Origin: a virus | DNA length: 32,367 bases | IMG/VR virus record: IMGVR_UViG_3300032294_001559 | Location: 1 to 32,367 of that record | Reading direction: 5' to 3' (one strand) | Shown here: positions 28,235 through 28,923 of the stretch, piece after piece | Position numbering within the stretch: the first letter of the stretch is position 1 | How the letters are laid out: each line of letters opens with the position of its first letter | Translations under genes and position numbers: made by a program | Notes under the pieces: model-generated | The model's database searches: none | What the model was told of the DNA's origin: nothing | What the model saw: only the letters and a program-made list of their open reading frames with translations

Positions 28235-28261
28235 GAGGGGGGCTTGACAGATGCCCTCCTC
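28235..28261 (+). terminator. Hairpin after the lysozyme gene with -35 box in its loop
   Basis: GAGGGGGGC (28235-28243) pairs with GCCCTCCTC (28253-28261) with one G-T. The loop holds TTGACA of the next promoter. No T-tract follows, so termination is uncertain. Confidence 0.45.
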
Positions 28262-28272
28262 CCATCTATAAT
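28244..28272 (+). promoter_or_regulatory. Perfect sigma70 promoter for the tRNA array
   Basis: TTGACA (28244-28249), 17 bases, TATAAT (28267-28272): an exact consensus promoter 17 bases ahead of tRNA-Arg. It should give strong, early transcription by unmodified host RNA polymerase. Confidence 0.9.
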
Positions 28273-28288
28273 AAGCAAGTAAGCAAAT

Positions 28289-28362
<74 letters not shown>

Positions 28363-28389
28363 TTGAAGATTTATTCTTCAAATTTATAT

Positions 28390-28461
28390 TCCCCTGTGGC
28401 GCAGCGGTAGCGCGAGAAACTGTTAATTTCCAGGTCACAAGTTCGAATCTTGTCGGGGGAG
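28390..28461 (+). tRNA. tRNA-Asn (anticodon GTT)
   Basis: Acceptor TCCCCTG pairs with CGGGGGA with one wobble. D arm GCGC-AGCGGTA-GCGC, anticodon loop CTGTTAA (GTT), T arm ACAAG-TTCGAAT-CTTGT. The outermost anticodon-stem pair is an A-C mismatch. Discriminator G at 28461 fits asparagine. Confidence 0.92.
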
Positions 28462-28463
28462 TT

Positions 28464-28735
28464 GAAAGGATTGGAAACGTCCGATTCTTTCATATTGGTT
28501 CTGGGTGGAATTCCCAGCAGTTCCGTTAGGGACTGTCCTTTGTAGGTTCGATACCTACATCTTCCTTATGGGAGATAAGAACGGCTATTGGAGACCACTC
28601 TAAATCCTAAGTTCGCTTAGGTCGGGGACTTGATCACCCCCGCCAGTAACTAAAAACAGGTCAATAGCGTGTCTATTGACTCTTCACGAAAGTGAAGCCT
28701 TTGCGGAGAGTGTCTTCCGCGAGTGGTGGGCACTC
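28464..28735 (+). ncRNA. Candidate structured RNA: eleven consecutive stem-loops
   Basis: Stems found by hand: 28464-28491 (12 pairs), 28501-28517, 28518-28535, 28542-28558 (a canonical T-arm with loop TTCGATA), 28559-28576, 28606-28621 (TTCG tetraloop), 28623-28642, 28660-28680 (8 perfect pairs), 28682-28697 (GAAA tetraloop), 28703-28720, 28721-28735. No protein-coding frame of note crosses the segment. It lies in the tRNA array transcribed from the consensus promoter at 28244. It may be one structured RNA, several processed pieces, or remains of decayed tRNAs. I could not match it to tmRNA, RNase P RNA or a group I intron by eye. Confidence 0.6.
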
Positions 28736-28746
28736 ACTACTCTTCA

Positions 28747-28820
28747 ACCTCTGGTAGTCTATTGGTAAGGACGGGTGGACAACACACATGGAAACTAGGT
28801 TCGATTCCTAGACAGAGGTA
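28747..28820 (+). tRNA. tRNA-like sequence with defective or unusual anticodon arm
   Basis: Acceptor strands ACCTCTG (28747-28753) and CAGAGGT (28813-28819) pair perfectly, the D stem GTCT/GGAC and T arm CTAGG-TTCGATT-CCTAG are good, and discriminator A follows. The anticodon arm GGGTG-GACAACA-CACAT has one mismatch and one wobble and lacks the conserved T at position 33, so the apparent CAA anticodon (Leu) is unreliable. It is either a decayed tRNA or a tRNA-like element with another role. Confidence 0.6.
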
Positions 28821-28822
28821 AT

Positions 28823-28895
28823 GCCCTTGTAGCTCAGCTGGTAGAGCACCGCTTTTGTAAAGCGGTTGTCGCAAGTTCAAGTCTTGTCGGGGGCT
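28823..28895 (+). tRNA. tRNA-Thr (anticodon TGT)
   Basis: Acceptor GCCCTTG/CGGGGGC with two wobbles, D arm GCTC-GAGC, anticodon arm CCGCT-TTTGTAA-AGCGG giving TGT, T arm GCAAG-TTCAAGT-CTTGT. The discriminator base T is also the first base of the downstream -35 box. Confidence 0.94.
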
Positions 28896-28923
28896 TGACA
28901 TAATATTCATTATGTCTTATACT
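28895..28923 (+). promoter_or_regulatory. Sigma70-type promoter TTGACA-N17-TATACT
   Basis: The -35 (28895-28900) begins at the tRNA-Thr discriminator; TATACT is at 28918-28923. It should drive tRNA-Gly. A perfect hairpin GGGAGA-GAAA-TCTCCC at 28951-28966 lies in the transcript before the tRNA. Confidence 0.75.

Follow-up and report, generated by a model that had tools for sequence, protein, structure and literature searches.

RNAs C and D are made from the tRNA cluster of phage T4. The bacterial abiF RNA, a proven antitoxin of the AbiF (Abi_2) toxin, works in trans (PMC12373285), and precedents for RNA mimicry by phages are provided by PhiTE against ToxIN (PMC3475682) and by RNA anti-CRISPRs (PMC10651486); phage tRNAs, moreover, defeat retrons (PMC11555353). 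Here we consider a segment between the tRNA genes of a cyanophage, at positions 28464-28735 of a window that comprises the whole 32,367-nucleotide (nt) stretch of the IMG/VR record IMGVR_UViG_3300032294_001559 (positions 1 to 32,367). Rather than one RNA, this segment comprises at least five independent modules in tandem, which we designate A, X, K, Y and D and after which comes a tRNA-like module F. Comparison with related phage sequences gives good support to the view that it is a real and conserved array of structured RNAs that is new to Rfam.

Modules of the segment and their conservation

The minimum free energy (MFE) of the segment is -106.1 kcal/mol, against -78.4 +/- 4.9 for its shuffled versions (z -5.65; none of 200 shuffles was as low). 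Compared with 189 other 272-nt windows of the contig it ranks first (lowest) by MFE and second-lowest by z, so that the stem density which an earlier note on this DNA had placed far above the rest of the window is borne out for energy and very nearly for z. The same note had counted eleven hairpins standing back to back, and eleven can indeed be assigned (one in A, four in X and two each in K, Y and D), among them the described stems with TTCG and GAAA tetraloops (CCTAAG-TTCG-CTTAGG and CTTCAC-GAAA-GTGAAG); the last hairpin, however, reaches 28742 and not the 28735 given there. As had also been reported, the segment contains no reading frame of note (none of at least 40 amino acids), and the Rfam search, without a match to tmRNA, RNase P RNA or group I introns, agrees with the impression that it resembles none of these. 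The suggestion of a possible new phage RNA stands as regards a new structured RNA, but has to be recast as a mosaic of separate cassettes, some of them tRNA-like, in place of a single RNA. On the segment Rfam detected only tRNAs and chance matches, with A, X, K, Y and D matching no family. The search for ToxI-like type III antitoxins gave no Rfam match up to an E-value of 5 and no tandem identical repeats, the modules being mutually unlike, and a BLAST comparison of the segment with 50,697 phage records returned nothing meaningful. The modules are the following:

28464 to 28491, plus strand: module A, a hairpin directly 3' of tRNA-Asn with a 12-bp stem and an AACG loop, a position common to most relatives.
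28497 to 28596, plus strand: module X, a four-hairpin tRNA-like unit, predicted to be a cloverleaf if circular (ARAGORN circular mode).
28600 to 28642, plus strand: module K, two hairpins, CTAAATCCTAAG-TTCG-CTTAGG-TC-GGGG-ACTTGATCAC-CCCC, the most conserved module, its exact pattern being found in relatives.
28660 to 28697, plus strand: module Y, hairpins GTCAATAG-CGTGT-CTATTGAC and CTTCAC-GAAA-GTGAAG, seen at 9 loci (e.g. L168, L247).
28701 to 28742, plus strand: module D, a pair of hairpins side by side whose loops (AGTGTC / GGCACT) are in part complementary, its pattern being found in relatives.
28747 to 28820, plus strand: module F, a tRNA mimic that ARAGORN reports as 'tRNA-Leu(caa)', in which a GACAA pentaloop replaces the anticodon loop.

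The exact pattern of K and the pattern of D each recur in at least 119 viral stretches. Conservation and covariation of the stems in relatives had been set beforehand as the test on which the idea of a functional RNA might fail, and the idea survived it. Unselected versions of module A have stems that differ yet pair, namely GAAAG/CTTTC (window), GGAAG/CTTCC, GATAG/CTATC and GAATG/CATTC (S-PM2). Module A has 92.6% of its cells paired with two-sided changes at 7 of 11 pairs, and the 14 distinct versions of D keep all stems (100% of cells paired; two-sided changes at 5 of 15 pairs), these counts being biased upward by search patterns that fix some stem letters. Pairs left free in the patterns still change on both sides, as in the anticodon-like stem of F and in two stem pairs of D. 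Module E, which is found in other arrays, has 99.2% of cells paired and two-sided changes at 7 of 24 pairs. One set of pair counts for A and C, taken from sequences chosen for having the stem, is not used as proof. In the alignment of K two-sided changes are nearly absent, and the variation in K and X is too small for a strong statement on covariation. K occurs in one frame with two loop versions, GGGG-ANTTGATCAC-CCCC and AGGGG-GATGGCC-TCCCCT (the loop varies in L007/L047 and in additional contigs), and a variant of it is also present in S-PM2. Module C displays the constant loop CCTCTAAY on unrelated stems, its copies in S-PM2 and S-SRM01 having been found via their position. In the sufficiently variable modules the stems change in a compensatory way while the loops stay constant. 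These changes, together with the constant loops and the exact conservation over many contigs, disfavor decayed tRNA genes and repeats devoid of function, an explanation to which the tRNA-derived look of X and F would lend itself but which we find hardly credible.

Kissing of the two loops of module D is not claimed here; AGTG/CACT alone is constant throughout. The loop of module C (e.g. L023 around 4350; L378 2574-2600) is reminiscent of a part of that of abiF (CCTCTCAACGAT), and C is possibly a compact relative of abiF RNA.

Module F, which also occurs in S-PM2, S-CREM1, S-RIM32 and DSL-LC03, was recovered in 26 distinct versions with the GACAA pentaloop on a covarying 3-bp stem (99.4% of cells paired; 6 of 18 pairs two-sided). 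It departs from the tRNA pattern of a 7-nt anticodon loop, U33 and a 5-bp anticodon stem, with A at position 33 in the ARAGORN reading, and the Rfam tRNA model gives it 30.7 bits (threshold 29) in a short-stretch search and no match in the whole-window scan. Given the pentaloop on a 3-bp stem, normal codon reading is impossible. The four hairpins of X, in a correction to the earlier note, together make up a tRNA-like architecture. As a circle X has an acceptor ATCTTCC/GGGAGAT capped by TTAT, a T arm GTAGG-TTCGATA-CCTAC with a normal T loop, an anticodon-like arm CTGGG-TGGAATT-CCCAG and a long variable arm; the strands of the acceptor-like stem stand in reversed order, with TTAT linking them. 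ARAGORN at a relaxed threshold recovered the circularised cloverleaf in 13 of 24 variants, in 2 of 400 shuffles and in 1 of 384 other window tiles, a result that depends on the point at which the circle is closed. Module X has the look of a circularly permuted tRNA mimic. Both the G33 in the anticodon-like loop and the long variable arm combined with a Phe-type anticodon speak against an aminoacylated tRNA derived from a circular X precursor. X plausibly arose where two tRNA genes with similar acceptor stems meet in tandem, and such junctions are seen in L238 and L314.

Further tRNA-like genes with a non-canonical T loop (GGTAGGGGCRGNACC instead of GGTTCGANNCC), which were missed by ARAGORN, are found in L119, L134, L166 and L179 (tRNA-Asn-like) and in L088 (tRNA-Val-like); these are possibly additional tRNA mimics.

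Mosaic arrays in cyanophage tRNA clusters

As a comparison set we used 80 loci from IMG/VR that surround the nearby phage lysozyme gene (PF18013) and that yielded the intervals between tRNA-Asn and the next tRNA. These intervals range from 1-2 nt up to about 280 nt and are assembled from recurring blocks: the window has the order A-X-K-Y-D-F, and other arrays also employ B, C, E, G, H, I and J. IMG/VR contains hundreds of cyanophage arrays with these and other modules between tRNA genes. Across loci the module strings display 70 distinct orders, some strings ending at contig ends, which indicates that the modules are separate and exchangeable units. A tRNA lies within 300 nt upstream in 115, and downstream in 125, of the 132 distinct contexts of K. 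In S-PM2, a cultured phage of Synechococcus WH7803, A-K-C-F is located between tRNA-Thr and tRNA-Ala (L378 2490-2672, corresponding to AJ630128.1 164547-164729), a region for which the S-PM2 record has no annotated RNA feature.

The operon to which the segment belongs has these further elements:

28244 to 28272, plus strand: a sigma-70-type promoter for the tRNA/hairpin operon, TTGACA-17-TATAAT.
28288 to 28462, plus strand: tRNA-Arg(tct) and tRNA-Asn(gtt), the first genes of the operon (ARAGORN; Rfam tRNA 71.7 and 62.6 bits).
28823 to 28895, plus strand: tRNA-Thr(tgt), the final gene ahead of a second promoter at 28895-28923 (ARAGORN, promoter match).

The exact-consensus promoter noticed earlier is thus real, matching at 12 of 12 positions. 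The location in a tRNA array likewise holds, with tRNA-Arg and tRNA-Asn upstream and tRNA-Thr and tRNA-Gly downstream (ARAGORN), except that the adjoining 'tRNA-Leu(caa)' is the tRNA mimic F of the same set. Elsewhere in the window, 31438-31520 matches tRNA weakly, at 30.2 bits (threshold 29), without an ARAGORN call. An OprB/SLH porin is encoded by the phage at 29107-30654, directly 3' of the tRNA array, and S-SRM01 has the same arrangement.

As the modules abut tRNA genes on either side, it is conceivable that the hairpins are spacers which aid the maturation or stability of tRNA transcripts, for instance as barriers to RNase E/P or exonucleases. However, the sequence of the loops and of entire 40-100-nt modules is kept, beyond mere pairing, and in L057 and L062 tRNA-Asn and tRNA-Thr are 1-2 nt apart and spacer-free. 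Furthermore, in L159, L110 and L189 no tRNA precedes module A, which starts directly behind a TTGACA-TAATAT promoter; this speaks for the modules as products in their own right and not only as tRNA spacers. We therefore regard the spacer role as quite improbable. No more probable is the proposal that the modules act on transcription, either as trans-acting regulatory sRNAs or as put-like antitermination elements: the paired hairpins of D and K downstream of a promoter do share the broad arrangement of put RNA, but position in the array varies, different modules follow in succession, and the distance to the promoter or downstream gene is inconstant. Alternatively, the modules might be stable phage RNAs with a structural or metabolic role apart from defence, for example in translation or particle assembly. 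The genomic setting, which is that of the T4 RNAs C and D, as well as the constant loops and the many copies would suit such a role; yet a core function predicts a constant set, whereas the set varies by phage and several relatives lack both K and D, and we consider it unlikely.

Solitary abiF RNAs and a proposed decoy function

In S-SRM01 an abiF RNA is found just 5' of tRNA-Arg (49.3 bits; Rfam threshold 37), and in S-CREM1 one lies between tRNAs (PMC9964418). Among the 138 matching loci listed for the abiF core motif, which are partly non-independent, a tRNA is present within 400 nt in 93 and K or D is shared in 27. The abiF RNA is present in 12 of 20 large records and the Abi_2 toxin gene in none; some of these records were picked for abiF, and among the 14 that were picked by K, D or the lysozyme gene 6 carry the RNA. 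In 30 further abiF records the toxin gene was seen in one (Abi_2, L352 / L453), with the abiF RNA some 120 nt upstream and away from any tRNA, which constitutes a positive control with the normal antitoxin-toxin layout. As far as these records go, the cyanophage abiF RNAs appear to be solitary antitoxins. Annotated genes for protein antitoxins also lie within cyanophage tRNA clusters or beside them, namely those for a Phd-like protein in RB11-B (L451 4422-4595) and PhdYefM in S-CAM4 (L449 3857-4060).

We tentatively favor the possibility that the array consists of cassettes of small structured RNAs which are processed with the tRNAs and serve as decoys against host toxins and defences. We infer this function from the neighbouring elements: constant loops on free stems, exchange of cassettes, tRNA mimics and solitary antitoxin RNAs come together in one place. 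Transcription from the promoter at 28244 would take in the segment together with the tRNAs, and the transcript is probably cut by tRNA-processing enzymes into separate short RNAs. The hairpins with constant loops and free stems (A, K and D; elsewhere C) may then bind and silence RNA-binding toxins, as the abiF antitoxin RNA does, and the tRNA-like X and F could tie up tRNA-cutting or tRNA-sensing enzymes. Modules would be exchanged among phages by recombination as host toxins differ. A decoy function is in our judgement the most likely single explanation, its main rival being the stable-RNA role unrelated to defence. A wider proposal is more doubtful: the tRNA arrays of cyanophages would hold exchangeable RNA decoys from over ten unrelated families of small RNAs, among them a circularly permuted tRNA mimic and one that lacks an anticodon, and each family would neutralise its own target among the RNA-binding toxins and tRNA nucleases of the host.

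Several points weigh against a decoy function. The window gave no match to abiF RNA (RF03085) above 37 bits, and no host counterpart of A, K or D was found, the cyanobacterial genomes having been searched by one exact K pattern only. The exact K pattern gave, across 85,000 species, two chance matches in coding sequence (an ABC-transporter gene and an archaeal region), which were rejected, and the plasmid search produced one chance match and no module counterpart. Moreover, the modules are known here from DNA sequence alone, and position within a tRNA cluster does not prove function.

S-PM2 on Synechococcus WH7803, with A-K-C-F, offers a cultured test system for the decoy proposal, and strand-specific RNA-seq of S-PM2 infection is public (E-MTAB-5840; PMC5931967). 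If the proposal is correct, the array would point to a store of novel RNA antitoxins and, via these, to novel cyanobacterial toxins, and would partly explain the retention of tRNA clusters by phages.

Comparison with known systems

Like the RNAs C and D of T4, the modules are extra RNAs within the tRNA cluster of a T4-type phage, but those RNAs are a fixed pair whereas the cassettes here are interchangeable; the two are set apart by description and not by sequence. GOLLD and ROOL RNAs (PMC12286853) are phage RNAs that also adjoin tRNAs, but they are single large RNAs, unlike the 30-100-nt units of this array, for which Rfam gave no match to them. The wcaG, manA and abiF non-coding RNAs of the S-CREM1 tRNA cluster (PMC9964418) are likewise structured RNAs between cyanophage tRNA genes, that cluster including module F, although in the available portion of that account A, K, D and X are undescribed and abiF is not interpreted as an anti-toxin decoy. 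The PhiTE pseudo-ToxI escape RNA (PMC3475682) and the RNA anti-CRISPRs (PMC10651486) are phage RNAs that imitate host defence RNA; each of these copies one known host RNA, whereas the present modules are unrelated, stand in tandem and have no known host model. Finally, no window module matches the abiF family (RF03085) and the phage abiF copies are without a toxin gene, but abiF RNA resembles the modules in being a short hairpin with a constant loop and a free stem, and it occurs alongside them in cyanophage tRNA arrays.
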